Origin: Maribacter algarum (ex Zhang et al. 2020)
Lineage (GTDB): Bacteria > Bacteroidota > Bacteroidia > Flavobacteriales > Flavobacteriaceae
Assembly (NCBI RefSeq): GCF_005885635.1
Contig: NZ_VATY01000001.1
Coordinates: 1,054,001 to 1,118,000, forward strand
Length of the DNA stretch: 64,000 bases
Direction: 5' to 3'
Position numbers and translations under genes: made by a program. Below the pieces are notes generated by a model. The model did not search any database. It was not told the DNA's origin and saw nothing but the letters and a program-made list of their open reading frames with translations. Positions 15,825 through 52,532 of the stretch are shown piece by piece (within the stretch, counting starts at the first letter, position 1; each line of letters starts with the position of its first letter).

Positions 15825-15914
15825 TTAACATTTAGGTAATATAGTAACGTTTAGATAACCCTTTTACAATACACTTTTAACATATGGGTAACCCGACTTT
15901 TACAAGTGTATAGT
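15825..15914 (+). promoter_or_regulatory. Pho-box-like array and -10-like element before the TonB receptor
   Basis: Seven-base units occur with 11-bp start-to-start spacing: TTAACAT (15825) and GTAATAT (15836); then, shifted by 8, GTAACGT (15844), ATAACCC (15855), a weak ACAATAC (15866), TTAACAT (15877), GTAACCC (15888) and TTTACAA (15899). A TATAGT hexamer follows at 15909-15914. The 7+4 geometry is that of a PhoB box. The identity of the binding regulator is inference. Confidence 0.6.
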
Positions 15915-15956
15915 TTTTTTGCAGCGGTATTTAAAATCAAACATAGTAAAACAAAA

Positions 15957-18740
15957 ATGAGAAAACTTTTAATTGGCTTGCTGTTGCTCGCCACTGCTCA
16001 AATTACTGCACAAGAAACAGGAAGTATTGTGGGAAAGCTAACGGACACAGATTTTAATAATGACCCATTAGCTTTTGCAAATATTCTTATCGAAGGCACA
16101 ACTAAAGGAACTACCTCGGATTTTGACGGTCTTTACGAAATCGCAAATTTAGACCCAGGAACTTACACCGTTGTTTACAGTTTCTTGGGCTATGAAACCA
16201 TTACTAAAGCCGATGTTGTTGTCGAAGCTGGCAAATCTACTACGGTTGATGTCGGTCTATCTGCGGCCGCAGGTGTGGAACTCGAAGAGTTTGTAGGCAC
16301 AGGCACAACAAAAAAAGAATCTGAAGCTGCCTTGTTGTTAGATCAAAAAAATGCCACAATTGTAAAGGAAAGTATTGGCGCGCAAGAATTGTCATTCAAA
16401 GGAATTAGTGACGCAGCAGCTGCTGTGAACAAAATTTCTGGGGTGTCAAAACAAGAAGGTGGAGGTAATGTTTATGTTCGTGGTCTTGGTGACAGGTATT
16501 TAAATACGACGTATAATGGTCTTCCAGTACCATCAAATAATATCGAAAAGAAGAATATCGATTTGAACTTGTTTTCCTCTGACGTCATTCAAAACGTTGG
16601 GGTGAGTAAAACTCATGCAGCCAATTTCTATGGAGATTTTGCTGCTGGTAATGTTGACATAACCGCTAAAGAACATACAGGTGACTTCTTTCTTGATGTA
16701 GATCTTGGAACTACTGTAAACACAAATGCTGTCGGAACTGATTTTGTAAAAAGTGAAGGCACGGGTTATTTTGGATTCTACAATAGATATAGAAACAATC
16801 CGTATGCAGTATTGCTGTCTCATGGAGTTGATGCTATTTCCTCTGAAGGAAATACAGGTGTTTCAGGAAGCTTTGCTAGCGGAAAGTCTTGGAATATAGG
16901 TGATGCCTCACGATTAAGTGTGTTTGCAACCGCCTCATTCGGAAACTCTTTCGAATTCCGTGAAGGTCCTGCAGTAGATTATACAACCGTTGAAAAGAAA
17001 CGTTTTCCAAACTCAGAACAATACGAATATGGAAGAAATACAACGGCTATGGCGAACATTGTTTATCGTATCAATGATAAACACAAGGTAAAATACAACT
17101 CACTTTTCATAAATGACGCTACAGATGAGGTTTCCTATTTTGGAACCAAGGGCTTAGGTAGCAATCGTGATGCGATTCTAGATACAGACCGTGGTTTCTA
17201 CCAATCTAACGTACAATTCAGTCAGGACATGATTTTTGTAAATCAACTTCTTGGAACTAGTACCCTGAGCGAAAAATTAAAATTGGACTGGGGAGTTGGT
17301 TACAACAATGTTCTAGCACGCCAACCAGATCGTAAACGTATCTCTGTTGAACGTTATGACCTTGAACTGGATAATGACGAATCTACTAACGGTTTTTTCT
17401 TCAGTAACATAGCTTATGATAACCAACGCTATTTTCAAGATATCGAGGATAGTGAGCTGAATGCTCGTATCAACCTCTCTTATGATATATCGGAAAAATT
17501 GAAATTCAACTTCGGTTATAACGGTCGTTCGAAACAAAGAACATTCGAAAATATCCGTTACGGATATGATTTCATACAGCCCAATACTCCCGTTGGAGAC
17601 GTAAGGAATTTAGATGGTGTTTTTACTCAAGAAAACTTAGGTACGGTTTTCAATACAGTAGTATTCAATGGCCTTGACCCGCAAAACGGATTAGGTAACA
17701 CAAACTTACCGGGCAGATTCGAAAATACATATGAAGGAAATTTAAATGTACATGCTTTTTACACCGATGCTGTTTACAAAATCAGTGATAAGCTATCATT
17801 TGTACCGGGTATACGTTTAGAGAAGTTTAATCAAGATATCACCTATGATGTGATTAATTTACCTGCTACTGATCCAGGGGCAAGAGACGCTAGCGAATTT
17901 TTCATCCTTCCAAGTTTAAATGTGAAATACGCCTTGAACGAAGATCAAAACCTTCGATTCTCATTTAGTAGTACGGTTTCAAATCCGGAATTTAAAGAAG
18001 TTGCACCATTTGTTTATGAAGATGTCACACAACGTATCGGAGGTAACCCTAATCTATTGAACGACCCAGCGTTTTCTAGAATATATAACGTTGATATAAA
18101 GTACGAGTGGTTTATGAAACCAAGCGAACTTTTATCGGTTGCAGCTTTTGCTAAAGCGATTAACGACCCTGTTAACTTGGTAGTAGCCAACGATGCTACA
18201 GGAACACAACGTTTCTTTAGAACAGGAGATCAAGCACAAGTACTCGGTTTTGAATTTGAGGTGCGCAAAGCCTTGATTACTGATGCTGATGAGCAAAGTG
18301 TTTTATCAACAGGTATCAACGCAACATATACATATACCAAACAAGATTTGAAAGGGAGCAATGGTGTTTTCTCAACAACATTTGACAGAGAATCGGACCA
18401 ATTGCAAGGGGCCTCACCTTTATTATTAAATGCAGATTTAAGCTATCGCCCAACCTTCGGCTCGTATAAGCCTGTTGCCAACTTGGTCTTCTCTTATTTC
18501 TCTGACCGTATAGATGCGTTGGGTTCGGGTCAACTCGGAAATATTATAGAAAAAGCAGTTCCCACCCTTGATTTTGTATGGAAAAACAACATTAATGAAA
18601 AGATGGAGCTTAACGCAAGTTTCAAAAATCTTCTAAACCCAACTATAGAGAGAGTACGGGAAGTTGAAGGAGGAGACGTTACGCTCTCAAGTTTCAAAAG
18701 AGGACTCAATATCGGGTTTCAATTCAAATATAAATTCTAA
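15957..18740 (+). CDS. TonB-dependent outer-membrane receptor
   Basis: 927 residues from the ATG at 15957, which gives the signal peptide MRKLLIGLLLLATAQITAQ; the frame is open upstream to 15906 but that part has no signal character. Domains: carboxypeptidase-D-regulatory-like domain (about 22-105), TonB plug (about 120-240, with GGGNVYVRGLGDRY), then the 22-strand barrel ending in an aromatic residue (FQFKYKF). No SusD partner follows; instead a beta-helix lipoprotein lies 27 bp downstream. That receptor/lipoprotein pairing, the promoter array shared with the PiT transporter gene and the neighbouring genes suggest uptake of phosphate or a phosphorus compound, which is inference. Confidence 0.93.
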   Translation: MRKLLIGLLLLATAQITAQETGSIVGKLTDTDFNNDPLAFANILIEGTTKGTTSDFDGLYEIANLDPGTYTVVYSFLGYETITKADVVVEAGKSTTVDVGLSAAAGVELEEFVGTGTTKKESEAALLLDQKNATIVKESIGAQELSFKGISDAAAAVNKISGVSKQEGGGNVYVRGLGDRYLNTTYNGLPVPSNNIEKKNIDLNLFSSDVIQNVGVSKTHAANFYGDFAAGNVDITAKEHTGDFFLDVDLGTTVNTNAVGTDFVKSEGTGYFGFYNRYRNNPYAVLLSHGVDAISSEGNTGVSGSFASGKSWNIGDASRLSVFATASFGNSFEFREGPAVDYTTVEKKRFPNSEQYEYGRNTTAMANIVYRINDKHKVKYNSLFINDATDEVSYFGTKGLGSNRDAILDTDRGFYQSNVQFSQDMIFVNQLLGTSTLSEKLKLDWGVGYNNVLARQPDRKRISVERYDLELDNDESTNGFFFSNIAYDNQRYFQDIEDSELNARINLSYDISEKLKFNFGYNGRSKQRTFENIRYGYDFIQPNTPVGDVRNLDGVFTQENLGTVFNTVVFNGLDPQNGLGNTNLPGRFENTYEGNLNVHAFYTDAVYKISDKLSFVPGIRLEKFNQDITYDVINLPATDPGARDASEFFILPSLNVKYALNEDQNLRFSFSSTVSNPEFKEVAPFVYEDVTQRIGGNPNLLNDPAFSRIYNVDIKYEWFMKPSELLSVAAFAKAINDPVNLVVANDATGTQRFFRTGDQAQVLGFEFEVRKALITDADEQSVLSTGINATYTYTKQDLKGSNGVFSTTFDRESDQLQGASPLLLNADLSYRPTFGSYKPVANLVFSYFSDRIDALGSGQLGNIIEKAVPTLDFVWKNNINEKMELNASFKNLLNPTIERVREVEGGDVTLSSFKRGLNIGFQFKYKF

Positions 18741-18767: not shown

Positions 18768-19949
18768 ATGAAAACAAGCAAGTTTCTTTTAGGTTTTTTT
18801 ACATTAACAATTCTATTGGTTGGTTGTGCTGCTGATGATACAGCAGATGTTATTATTAATCAAGAAGGTGGAAACCCTACAAATCCGACAACTCCAGATA
18901 GTAATGAAATTGGAGGAACCCTTTCTGAAGACCTAACCTTAACCACGGGAACGGAATATAAATTGACCAGTGCATTAATCGTCCCTGAAGGATTTACACT
19001 AAATATCGAACCAGGTGCTGTAATACGAGCTACTACAGGTGCTGATGTCTATGTTGCGGTAATGCAAGGTGGAAAAATCATGGCAGAGGGTACATCAACA
19101 AACCCTATCGTTTTTACTTCTGATTCAGCAACACCAAACCCTGGAGACTGGGGCGGTCTTATCGTTTTAGGGAAAGCGCCTATCAATTCTGTTACCGGTG
19201 GTGATGCGACATCTACCTCTGAAATTGGTGGTTTACCTTATGGCGGAAGCGCAGCAGATGATAATTCAGGAATTCTCAAATATTTACGTATCGAATACTC
19301 CGGTGGTGCAGCAGACGCATCTTCAGAGAACAATGGATTTTCTTTCTATGGTGTCGGTAATGGAACAACTATCGAATACATACAAGCATTTGAAGGAAAA
19401 GATGATGGCGTTGAGTTTTTTGGAGGAACTGTAAACGCATCATTTGTATCTGTTATTGGTGCTCAGGATGATTCTATCGACTGGACAGAAGGTTTCACAG
19501 GAACCTTAACTAATGTATATGTTGAACACAGACAAGCACACGATAAAGGAATTGAAGGTGATGGTTTCAACACTGATATAGGAAACAATTCAGACCCATT
19601 ATTCTGGTCTGCTCCTACTATCAACAATATTACCATTAACGGAAATGGTTCTTCTAATGAGAATGAAGCTATCCGACTAAGAGCAGGAACTAGAGCACTT
19701 TTTACCAATGTATTGCTATCAGGTTTTGCCGAAGGTTTTGATTTAGATAGTGATGGTGCCGACAGTCCGACAGGTCAGGGCGTTCTTGATGGTGATACAG
19801 GTGTTACTAACATATCTTTTGACGATGTTACAGTAAACCTTAAAAATGATACTGGCGATACCTTTGGAGAAGCTGAATTCTTCACAGGAATCGGAAATGG
19901 AACTGGAGCTGATTACAGTTCTTGGAACGGTGGATGGACGCGTAACTAA
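18768..19949 (+). CDS. Beta-helix-like lipoprotein, partner of the TonB receptor
   Basis: 393 residues with signal peptide and lipobox LVGC (Cys20). After a Thr/Asn-rich linker, short repeating strand-turn units (GAVIRATTGADVYVAV, GGKIMAEGTSTNPIVF, GDWGGLIVLGKAPI, ILKYLRIEYSGGA, TIEYIQAFEGKDDGVEFFGG) suggest a right-handed parallel beta-helix. It starts 27 bp after the receptor gene and is followed by a strong terminator, so the two form an operon. The family often accompanies SusD-less receptors in marine flavobacteria. A surface capture role is plausible but unproven. Some databases label relatives 'multidrug transporter', which the sequence does not support. Confidence 0.8.
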   Translation: MKTSKFLLGFFTLTILLVGCAADDTADVIINQEGGNPTNPTTPDSNEIGGTLSEDLTLTTGTEYKLTSALIVPEGFTLNIEPGAVIRATTGADVYVAVMQGGKIMAEGTSTNPIVFTSDSATPNPGDWGGLIVLGKAPINSVTGGDATSTSEIGGLPYGGSAADDNSGILKYLRIEYSGGAADASSENNGFSFYGVGNGTTIEYIQAFEGKDDGVEFFGGTVNASFVSVIGAQDDSIDWTEGFTGTLTNVYVEHRQAHDKGIEGDGFNTDIGNNSDPLFWSAPTINNITINGNGSSNENEAIRLRAGTRALFTNVLLSGFAEGFDLDSDGADSPTGQGVLDGDTGVTNISFDDVTVNLKNDTGDTFGEAEFFTGIGNGTGADYSSWNGGWTRN

Positions 19950-20051: not shown

Positions 20052-20102
20052 TTAACTATTTTGTTACGCATAATTAATCTGCACTTAACCCAAACTTTAC
20101 AT
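20052..20102 (+). promoter_or_regulatory. Pho-box-like array, five units in register
   Basis: Units TTAACTA (20052), GTTACGC (20063), TTAATCT (20074), TTAACCC (20085) and TTTACAT (20096) are exactly 11 bp apart. A TATTTT element follows at 20112-20117 and the gene start at 20139. Same unit and period as before the TonB receptor and PiT genes. Confidence 0.6.
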
Positions 20103-20138
20103 TCCCAACGTTATTTTGTAATAATGATAAATCGAAAC

Positions 20139-20513
20139 ATGAAAAACTTCTTTGCATTTTGCTTTTTCTTATTCACAGCAGCAGCCTTTTCTCAAAATCA
20201 AGGGGCAATTCGCGGTACCGTTGCTGACAAAGCAATGAATAACGAACCAATGCTTTTTGCAAATGTTCAATTGAAAGGAGCTGATACCAGTTTCCAGACC
20301 AATTTTCATGGTAATTTTGAAATTTCTGAGCTTAATCCAGGCATACATACTTTGGTAGTGAGTTATGCAGGTTATGAAACCCAAGAAATAGAAGTCGTAG
20401 TCAAAAGCAATGAAATCACAGAGGTGTATTCCGAGGTATCACCCATGCAGATTAATTTTGATGATGTTGAAGGAATGGATGCGGTATTAAAAGAAGATAC
20501 ACTGAGAAAATAA
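20139..20513 (+). CDS. Stand-alone carboxypeptidase-D-regulatory-like domain protein
   Basis: 124 residues: signal peptide (MKNFFAFCFFLFTAAAFSQ) and a single carboxypeptidase regulatory-like domain, QGAIRGTVADKAMNNEPMLF through HTLVVSYAGYETQEIEV, then a short acidic tail. The domain closely parallels residues 22-105 of the TonB receptor at 15957, but plug and barrel are absent and the frame ends at a normal stop, so it looks like a deliberate short protein rather than a receptor remnant. ATG 20139 is chosen over 20124 since it begins the signal peptide. It lies between a Pho-box-like array and a bidirectional terminator. Function unknown. Confidence 0.75.
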   Translation: MKNFFAFCFFLFTAAAFSQNQGAIRGTVADKAMNNEPMLFANVQLKGADTSFQTNFHGNFEISELNPGIHTLVVSYAGYETQEIEVVVKSNEITEVYSEVSPMQINFDDVEGMDAVLKEDTLRK

Positions 20514-20976: not shown

Positions 20977-20984
20977 CTAAAAAA

Positions 20985-21024
20985 TTTACGTTAAATGAAC
21001 TTTTGCTTAACATTAAATTTACAT
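20985..21024 (+). promoter_or_regulatory. Pho-box-like array A between the YwqK-like and PiT genes
   Basis: Four units in exact 11-bp register: TTTACGT (20985), TGAACTT (20996), TTAACAT (21007) and TTTACAT (21018). Two of the three 4-nt spacers are TAAA. Oriented by unit direction it faces the PiT gene, but it also abuts the leftward promoter of the YwqK-like gene. The rest of the 305-bp intergenic region 20946-21250 holds this array, a weak hairpin at 21128-21150 and array B. Confidence 0.6.
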
Positions 21025-21169
21025 TGATAACGTTTCAAATATGCTTTTCGTATAAAACGCTTTAAAAAAATAGCCGTAATAGCTAATATTTCAAGGGGAT
21101 TTTCCAAATTTAGAGTCCGTGAATTCTAAAAAGCGATTTCTCAGCTTTTTTACGCCTTGAATCAATTTC

Positions 21170-21204
21170 ATAACATTAAATTAACGTATAAACTGAATTA
21201 TAGT
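21170..21204 (+). promoter_or_regulatory. Pho-box-like box B and -10-like element of the PiT gene
   Basis: ATAACAT (21170) and TTAACGT (21181) are separated by TAAA, with a TATAGT hexamer at 21199-21204, 11 bp after the box. The same box-then-TATAGT order occurs before the TonB receptor. The PiT start is 46 bp downstream. Confidence 0.6.
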
Positions 21205-21250
21205 AGCACTTTTGTGATTGACCAATTTCTGACCAATTATTACAGATTTA

Positions 21251-23497
21251 GTGGGAGAGAACATTTACCTTTTTATGATTATCGCGCTAGCCGTGCTAGC
21301 CATTACCGACTTGGTAGTAGGGGTTAGTAATGATGCTGTTAATTTTTTGAATTCGGCTATTGGTTCTAAGGCCATTTCCTTCAAAACAATTATGATTGTC
21401 GCAAGTGTAGGAATTGCTTTTGGAGCAATGTCCTCCAGCGGTATGATGGAGGTAGCTAGAAAGGGTATTTTCAATCCCTCCGAATTCGTCTTCGCCGAAA
21501 TCATGATCATCTTTATGGCGGTAATGATTACCGATATTTTGCTCCTTGACTTTTTCAATACTCTGGGAATGCCAACCTCTACAACCGTTTCCATTGTTTT
21601 CGAACTCTTAGGTGCCGCAGTGGCTATTTCATTGGTAAAGATTTCCAGTTCTGGAGGTGGATTTTCCGAATTATCAAACTACATCAATACTGAGAAGGCG
21701 ACCGAAATTATACTAGGCATATTACTTTCGGTAGTTGTTGCCTTTACTATAGGTGCCCTTATCCAATTTGTTTCAAGAATTCTTATTTCTTTTAAATTCA
21801 ATGAAAGACCTAAATGGGTCGGCGCTTTGTTCGGTGGTTTTGCTATCACATCAATCATCTATTTTATCATTGTAAAAGGTTTAAAAAGTGCTTCAATTTT
21901 TAGTCCTGAAATATTGGGTTATATCGGTGAAAATCCAGAGATTTTTCTTTTGGGGAATTTCGTTATCTGGACATTATTTTCGTGGCTGGTAAGCAGTTTT
22001 TTCAAAATAAACATATACACGCTAATCATTGTTTTAGGAACCTTCGCTTTAGCCATGGCCTTTGCAGGAAATGATTTGGTCAATTTTATAGGTGTTCCGT
22101 TAGCTGCATTGGAATGGTTTAATTCTTGGTCGGCCTCCGGTGTTGAAGCTGCCAATTATACCATGGAGAATCAACCGGTTCGCACTCCTACTCTACTTCT
22201 ATTGGCTTCGGGAGTTATTATGGTAATAACGCTTTGGTTTTCTTCGAAAGCAAAGAATGTGGTCAAAACCAGTGTGGATCTTTCCCGTCAAGATGAAGGT
22301 GATGAGCGTTTTCAACCGAACTTTCTATCGAGACAGATTGTCAAATTGACCATTCAAGCTTCAGAGAACCTCGGGGAAATCCTTCCAAAATCGCTTGTGG
22401 CTAAAATTGATTCCTGCTTTGAAAAACCGTATACCTATATTCCTAAAAGCAGAGTACAAGACCTTCCGGCTTTCGACTTGGTTAGGGCAGCTGTTAACCT
22501 TATGGTAGCTAGCGTACTTATTTCAATTGCAACCTCAATGAAACTTCCACTATCGACCACATATGTAACCTTTATGGTCGCGATGGGTACTTCTTTGGCT
22601 GATCGTGCTTGGGGCCCTGAAAGTGCAGTTTATCGCGTTGCTGGGGTGCTTAATGTTATCGGCGGATGGTTCTTTACCGCAATTAGCGCCTTTACTGCCG
22701 CCGCAATCATTGCATATATCATACATTTAGGTGGTATTTGGGCTATCGGGGTGCTATTGGTCATTGCCTTTTTATTGATTGGTAGAAACTACCTCTCACA
22801 TAACAAGAAAATGAAGGAAACGAAATTAGAAGAGAAGCTTCAAAAATCAGAGAGTAATTCCATTATTGAGCTTATAGAAGAAAGTTCCTCTAACGTTTCT
22901 TTGACTATCAATAGAGCGAATAAGATATATACGCAAGCGATTGACGGACTTTCCAAACACGATATTGACCGACTTAAAAAGAGTAAAAAGGGAATTGCCA
23001 AATTGAACAACGAAGTAGAAGACCTCCGTGGCAATATTTTCTATTTCATCAAGAATTTAGATGATTCCAGTGTTGGTGCAAGTAACTTTTATATAACGGC
23101 TTTAAGCTATTTGCAGGATATGACCCAATCTTTGGAATACATTTCAAAGGCCAGCTACAAGCATGTAAACAACAATCACAAAAAGTTACGTTTCAATCAA
23201 ATCAAGGACCTAAAGGAAACCGACTTGTTTATCGATGAATTGTTCACCGAAATAAAAACAATTTTCGATACCAAAGCCTATGACCAGCTTACGGAAATCA
23301 TTATAAATAAGGATCAGTTATTACATACTTTAGATCAAAAAATAACGAAGCAGATTGAACGGACAAGAGCTGATGAATCGAGTCCGAAAAATACAGCACT
23401 TTACTTCAGTCTTTTATTGGAAACCAAAGATTTGTTGAAAGCCACCATGAGTCTACTTGAAACTTATGATGGGCACGTCAATGCCGGTAGCATATAA
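21251..23497 (+). CDS. pit: Inorganic phosphate transporter, PiT family, with PhoU-like tail
   Basis: 748 residues. The membrane part (about 1-520) carries the two inverted PiT signature repeats, GVSNDAVNFLNSAIGS (near 24-39) and AGNDLVNFIGVPLAA (near 272-286), which bind phosphate and the coupling cation. The soluble C-terminal third (about 535-740) is helical and charged, like the PhoU-type regulatory domain fused to PiT proteins in Bacteroidetes. The start is GTG at 21251, giving the conserved ENIYLFMIIALAVLAITDL N-terminus. The promoter carries a Pho-box-like element. The next gene starts 11 bp after the stop, implying an operon. No pstSCAB or phoB is in the window. Confidence 0.93.
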   Translation: MGENIYLFMIIALAVLAITDLVVGVSNDAVNFLNSAIGSKAISFKTIMIVASVGIAFGAMSSSGMMEVARKGIFNPSEFVFAEIMIIFMAVMITDILLLDFFNTLGMPTSTTVSIVFELLGAAVAISLVKISSSGGGFSELSNYINTEKATEIILGILLSVVVAFTIGALIQFVSRILISFKFNERPKWVGALFGGFAITSIIYFIIVKGLKSASIFSPEILGYIGENPEIFLLGNFVIWTLFSWLVSSFFKINIYTLIIVLGTFALAMAFAGNDLVNFIGVPLAALEWFNSWSASGVEAANYTMENQPVRTPTLLLLASGVIMVITLWFSSKAKNVVKTSVDLSRQDEGDERFQPNFLSRQIVKLTIQASENLGEILPKSLVAKIDSCFEKPYTYIPKSRVQDLPAFDLVRAAVNLMVASVLISIATSMKLPLSTTYVTFMVAMGTSLADRAWGPESAVYRVAGVLNVIGGWFFTAISAFTAAAIIAYIIHLGGIWAIGVLLVIAFLLIGRNYLSHNKKMKETKLEEKLQKSESNSIIELIEESSSNVSLTINRANKIYTQAIDGLSKHDIDRLKKSKKGIAKLNNEVEDLRGNIFYFIKNLDDSSVGASNFYITALSYLQDMTQSLEYISKASYKHVNNNHKKLRFNQIKDLKETDLFIDELFTEIKTIFDTKAYDQLTEIIINKDQLLHTLDQKITKQIERTRADESSPKNTALYFSLLLETKDLLKATMSLLETYDGHVNAGSI

Positions 23498-52284: not shown

Positions 52285-52461
52285 AAAAGTTAGTGTAGTG
52301 AACTGAAAATTACCCTCGTGATGGGCTTACAAAGATGGAAAATAAAGGGGTATAAAAAATGCGTGTTTCAAAGATTCCATTACAAAGTTTTTAACATCGT
52401 ATGTTGAAATCTAGGTTCGCTACTGATGTACGTTAGCCTTACCGAAGAAATGAATTTTACA

Positions 52462-52532
52462 TAAAATTTACATTGAAGTTGAACAAAAAAAATAAACCAA
52501 AAAGTATAGTTAAGAATATACTTTTTGGTTTG
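52462..52532 (-). repeat. 71-bp direct repeat with terminator, copy 1
   Basis: Identical to 54013-54083 except for one base (T at 52474, C at 54025). It contains a 15-bp stem (52494-52508 with 52517-52531, arm AAACCAAAAAGTATA) with 8-nt loop and T-rich end, 26 bp past the stop of the propeller lipoprotein gene. It acts as that gene's terminator. The remaining sequence of the 288-bp gap 52270-52557 shows no gene. Confidence 0.85.

Follow-up and report, generated by a model that had tools for sequence, protein, structure and literature searches.

A conserved 11-bp direct-repeat array upstream of a TonB-dependent receptor operon in Maribacter algarum is a probable Pho box of the Bacteroidetes

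Pho boxes are composed of at least two 11-nt units, each with seven conserved and four less conserved bases, and their consensus varies by species (PMC4415409). The box bound by PhoB in E. coli (unit CTGTCAT) consists of 11-nt direct repeats, sits just upstream of the -10 hexamer and keeps a fixed distance to it. Riemerella anatipestifer belongs to the Flavobacteria in the wide sense. DAP-seq of its OmpR-type regulator PhoP gave 583 peaks and the core TTTAACA in an ArcA-like motif, and one gel-shift target was the promoter of a TonB-dependent receptor (PMC9603813). The cyanobacterial Pho box of SphR is CTTAACCT, an 8 + 3 structure in at least three tandem copies (PMC1906773). Our literature search, with most subscription journals outside its reach, found no paper defining a Pho box in the Bacteroidetes. 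PhoB of B. fragilis binds the pstC promoter, and the accessible part of that report defines no box (PMC3547664). In F. johnsoniae, the PUSIV/phoBR cluster is formed by the genes of PhoR (Fjoh_0543), PhoB (Fjoh_0544), a receptor (Fjoh_0545) and the lipoprotein FII (Fjoh_0546). Under phosphate depletion, Fjoh_0545 and Fjoh_0546 are induced (log2 8.02 and 9.91, respectively), and OprP (Fjoh_0542) is not (log2 -1.3, P 0.25); the accessible part of the paper describes no promoter box for the cluster (PMC8115612).

The window, that is, the whole stretch of 64,000 nucleotides of Maribacter algarum analysed here, contains an array of similar geometry upstream of a TonB-dependent receptor gene. All eight seven-base units of the preliminary description are present in the sequence. 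The main array of six direct repeats (15844-15905, plus strand), the proposed PhoB operator with three dimer sites, contains GTAACGT (15844), ATAACCC (15855), ACAATAC (15866), TTAACAT (15877), GTAACCC (15888) and TTTACAA (15899), and both the unbroken 11-bp register of these units and the weakness of the one at 15866 are confirmed. The remaining two, TTAACAT at 15825 and GTAATAT at 15836 (15825-15842, plus strand), form an upstream pair, also 11 bp apart, which lies 8 bp ahead of the main array and out of phase with it. The preliminary description compared the 7+4 layout with that of the PhoB box; the 11-nt units, with at least two direct repeats of seven conserved and four variable bases, are indeed there, and relatives keep their register. 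It also held that the unit is unlike the proteobacterial CTGTCAT, and this is so: the core is TAAC or TTAC, and the E. coli-type unit is not found.

The sigma-A consensus of F. psychrophilum is TAnnTTTG at -12 to -5 (PMC9723704). The corresponding -7 element of the receptor promoter is TTTTTTTGC (15914-15922, plus strand), with TTTG at 15918-15921; relatives have GTTTCTTTGC, and the Bacteroidetes consensus is TAnnTTTG. The six TWAC cores lie 18, 29, 40, 51, 62 and 73 bp upstream of TTTG, which places the two most downstream units at about -38 to -21 of the start expected from the F. psychrophilum consensus. The hexamer TATAGT noted earlier does start at 15909; its TATA part, on the other hand, is not conserved in relatives, where GTTTCTTTGC is conserved instead. 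Judged from the alignment, TATAGT is not the conserved promoter element.

The array is not outstanding by plain lag identity at 11, 22 and 33 bp: it is outscored by 64 overlapping starts of the window, of which 20948 ranks first. Since lag-11 identity is unexceptional in an A+T-rich window, the case rests on the TWAC core and the register. Hence the lag-11 scan, which ranked the array merely among the better sites, was replaced by a TWAC register anchored at TTTG; chains of three adjacent TWAC were rejected as well, since all that they pick up of the array is its 3' half. The TTTG-anchored register with at least three of six units does not occur in 100 first-order-Markov windows of 64 kb. The array is real, and its TWAC register with the downstream TTTG is beyond chance.

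For the periodic matrix proposed in the preliminary description, we used the best 80 of 578 confirmed relatives' loci obtained with the PiT transporter of the window as the query. Matches to the receptor and to the lipoprotein encoded next to it share the PiT locus in 39 of these 80, and a near-full-length receptor match including the start was present in 36. Together with the window this gave 37 promoters for the alignment; 30 of them could be placed in it and 24 reached the required score, the dropped ones being mostly from lipoprotein-first operons. The 24 TTTG-aligned receptor promoters, the window included, read TAAC/TAAC/TTAC/TAAT/TAAC/TTAC at -73 to -18, followed by GTTTCTTTGC, and the core C hardly varies in units 1, 2, 5 and 6. 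Scoring the loci with the resulting matrix gives 59 hits over 8 bits, among them copies of the two sites in the window; the reversed sequences give no hit. With a leave-out matrix of 21 promoters, constructed without the window, L009 and L010, the array scores 47.3 bits and a second promoter of the window 26.0 bits, the next best site in the window being at -28.2 bits and the best of 100 random windows at -11.3 bits.

For the receptor itself, 108 of the 120 family genomes (Flavobacteriaceae), the own one included, have a match at E <= 1e-40. From about 110 receptor matches of this family-wide draw we examined 70 loci, 30 with 1.5 kb flanks and 40 longer, including the own one; they overlap partly with the loci of the PiT query (e.g., L234 and L010, or L243 and L084, are the same place). 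At least three of six units are present in 65 of the 70 (64 of 69 if the own locus is set apart) and at least four in 58. The same arrangement recurs across dozens of related genera. Five of the 70 have no array, two of these lying beside phoB (L233, L252). In the 65 promoters, TWAC occurs at offsets 18, 29, 40, 51, 62 and 73 in 52, 63, 29, 18, 59 and 63 cases, respectively: counts are high for the two outer pairs (63 and 59; 63 and 52) and low for units 3 and 4 in the middle (18 and 29). As these promoters were selected on the register offsets, the independent evidence comes from the positions between the offsets, which are nearly empty, and from a peak at offset 92, that of the unit at 15825, filled in 20 of 65; offset 81 is filled in 2 of 65. 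The offset profile demonstrates a fixed position just upstream of the promoter hexamer, in place of the -35/-33 element.

In the window, the receptor (CarboxypepD-reg, Plug, beta-barrel; 15957-18740, plus strand) is followed by a lipoprotein gene (18768-19949, plus strand) with no Pfam or NCBIfam hit, whose product, by synteny and description, is probably of the FII type of F. johnsoniae. The array is flanked on its other side by a dGTPase-like minus-strand gene. The second promoter (20052-20118, plus strand) has TWAC at 20053, 20064, 20086 and 20097 in register with TTTG at 20115-20118 and precedes the gene of a small CarboxypepD-regulatory-like protein with an apparent signal peptide (20139-20513, plus strand). 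A two-unit site (21170-21214, plus strand; TAAC at 21171 and 21182, TTTG at 21211) lies upstream of the PiT-type phosphate transporter (PHO4; 21251-23497, plus strand). As two-unit sites are no commoner in the own genome than in reversed sequence, what speaks for the PiT site is its conservation: the -40 and -29 units are present in 74 of the 80 PiT promoters from the best 80 of 578 relatives' loci.

Two further features of this region may be mentioned. The C-terminal part of PiT, about 230 residues past the last membrane stretch, has no Pfam match and might, at a guess, be a regulatory domain resembling PhoU. Another element with 11-bp spacing, TTAACATTAAATTTACATTGA, lies at 20980-21035, between PiT and a 119-aa ORF on the minus strand, and points away from the 119-aa gene. 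Close copies are seen by eye in 11 of the 13 relatives L009-L021, and a similar one in 52424-52503. It is probably a motif different from the TWAC array.

Sites with at least three of six units number 75 in the best 80 of 578 relatives' loci (one in the reversed sequences) and 52 in the 40 longer family loci. These 127 sites in 120 loci, which partly overlap, with a few sites being secondary registers of one promoter, were assigned by tblastn to the receptor (61), the small CarboxypepD protein (32), the lipoprotein (20), a PF07396-type porin (9) and PiT (5), with no downstream gene left unclassified. PF07396 (phosphate-selective porin O and P) is matched by all seven porins scanned. Overall, a site is present at 82 of 1475 starts of ORFs of at least 150 aa in the same loci. 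Two of the five kinds, PiT and the porin, are phosphate-uptake genes.

The enrichment before phosphate-related and receptor genes anticipated in the preliminary description thus holds for the receptor, PiT, the PF07396-type porin and a few PstS loci, and fails for phosphatase genes, which mostly lack the box. No box is seen in the PF00245 loci (the gene is present in 9 of 30 genomes), and PhoX (10 of 30 genomes) has one at a single locus, L106, sites of two or more units being counted. Hence neither gene was retained as a regulon member. At L106 (900-1050), which comes from another family of the order, three in-register units stand just ahead of the PhoX reading frame.

Of 80 genomes of the class Bacteroidia, 51 have a match to PF12849 (PstS type), and 30 of the loci were examined. 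Five sites in these loci show three of the four downstream units ahead of a TTTG; the reversed sequences show none. The sites precede PstS (L282), a PF07396 porin (L287), PstS as judged by position (L292) and, in L271 and L285, 430-aa ORFs without a Pfam match; the remaining 25 loci have no TTTG-anchored site. Three-unit chains without the TTTG anchor were too weak a signal here (six, with three in reversed sequence) and were set aside. The proposal of a Bacteroidetes version of the Pho box is supported, the enrichment test not having overturned it.

About 1.70 Mb, or 33%, of the 5.1 Mb own genome was scanned (the window, L005, L006, L138-L197 and L298-L317). The register with at least three units is found there at two sites, both at this locus, compared to one in the reversed sequences. 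Two-unit sites are not enriched: 41 vs 53 reversed in one part of the scan and 9 vs 18 in another. The pattern TAAC-N7-TWAC-N14-TTTG, with ten matches vs six in the backward control, is too weak to be used alone; among the ten, the two of this locus are the ones with at least three in-register units in the scanned part of the genome. Two TAAC units at PiT-like positions are also seen before a 239-aa ORF (L298:12820). PhoU, PstS (PF12849), PhoX, PF00245 and PF07396 have no match at E <= 0.001 in the genome, which is listed as 99.94% complete. Despite the lack of PstS and PhoU matches, PhoB- and PhoR-like proteins are present, and phosphate sensing in this genome may be independent of Pst and PhoU.

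The own genome encodes four OmpR-type (Trans_reg_C) regulators. The one at L006, adjoined by a PhoR-like kinase, is the most PhoB-like, and its top two NCBIfam matches are PhoB models, both under the cut-offs (210.8 vs 296.2 and 207.5 vs 270 bits). On TIGR02154 the L005 regulator reaches the same level (212.1), but its best model is MtrA, and the best match of the L007 and L008 regulators is RprY. The C-terminal helix of L006 is RTIDVHIRKLREK, compared to RSMDVFISRLRK, RSMDVYIAKLRK and HTVNSHINRLRAK in the other three. In 21 of the 70 family loci, where the neighbour search covered PhoB, PhoR and the locus proteins only, phoB lies divergently beside the operon, at 165-381 bp from the leading gene, and its product is 74-90% identical to the PhoB of L006; 19 of the 21 have the array. 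The own phoBR is unlinked to the array. As no array is visible in the 1.1 kb upstream of the own phoB, its autoregulation through such a site was rejected.

The array agrees with a Pho box in every testable feature except the E. coli sequence. Just as the E. coli box sits upstream of the -10 element, the array sits upstream of the -7 element; it differs in the TWAC core instead of TGTCA, in having up to six contiguous units and in the TTTG anchor. The SphR box, as far as described, has nearly the same unit, with a TTAAC core and the 11-bp period; the phylum, target genes and promoter type are different, and the accessible part of its description contains no six-unit register. By gene order and description, the F. 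johnsoniae cluster resembles the family loci adjoined by phoB; there phoBR lies beside the receptor and lipoprotein genes, whereas in the window phoBR is elsewhere and PiT is beside the operon.

Given the register, its conservation, the kinds of genes, the divergent phoB and the induction in F. johnsoniae, the array is most probably a Pho box to which PhoB binds under phosphate starvation, activating the operon (probability about 0.87). For M. algarum itself we infer PhoB as the binder, activation as the effect and phosphate as the signal. In the proposed mechanism, phosphate starvation would yield phosphorylated PhoB, most likely that of L006, encoded elsewhere, which would bind the 11-bp units head to tail, with two to three dimers covering the array. 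The last two units, at about -38 to -21, may stand in for the -33 element; PhoB would in this way recruit sigma-A polymerase to the -7 box with its TTTG and switch on the receptor, the lipoprotein, the small CarboxypepD protein and PiT.

The most serious competitor, though an unlikely one, is that the array is the operator of another OmpR-family regulator, of the RprY type or MtrA-like, with a similar core, in which case PhoB would not be the main regulator of the locus. There are four Trans_reg_C regulators to choose from, L005 equals L006 on one PhoB model, and the core TTTAACA in the ArcA-like motif of R. anatipestifer PhoP is shared with the array (PMC9603813), the accessible part of that description containing no 11-bp array. 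However, the regulator found divergently beside the operon in relatives is of the L006 type, the targets are phosphate genes, and the C-terminal helix of L006 is unlike those of the other three regulators.

It is still less probable that the site belongs to a regulator of another kind or is a promoter-proximal DNA-shape element independent of phosphate. A+T-rich repeats in helical phase can serve as UP-like or bending elements, but the core C is almost constant in four units; a generic element would precede many genes, whereas here five kinds of genes are involved, and there are just two sites in one third of the genome. Chance repetition in an A+T-rich intergenic stretch, consistent as it is with the ordinary lag-11 identity, has a negligible probability and is refuted by the register kept in 65 of 70 loci and by its absence from the simulated windows.

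Returning to the Pho box, a broader version is possible, although we hold it only tentatively and consider it rather less likely than its opposite: an operator common to the Bacteroidia, with up to three contiguous PhoB dimer sites and a phase-shifted fourth, locked to the -7 box. In organisms like this one, for which neither PstS nor PhoU is seen, it would drive an uptake route made of PiT, the TonB-dependent receptor and the lipoprotein, so that PhoR would have to read phosphate without the Pst-PhoU complex.

The phosphate-starvation responses of the Bacteroidetes have so far been mapped by omics. With a box of fixed geometry, sequence could be used to read out the PhoB regulon of a major phylum of sea and soil. 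The box also links the low-phosphate receptor and the lipoprotein of the FII type with PiT, and it prompts one to ask by what means PhoR perceives phosphate where neither Pst nor PhoU is found.
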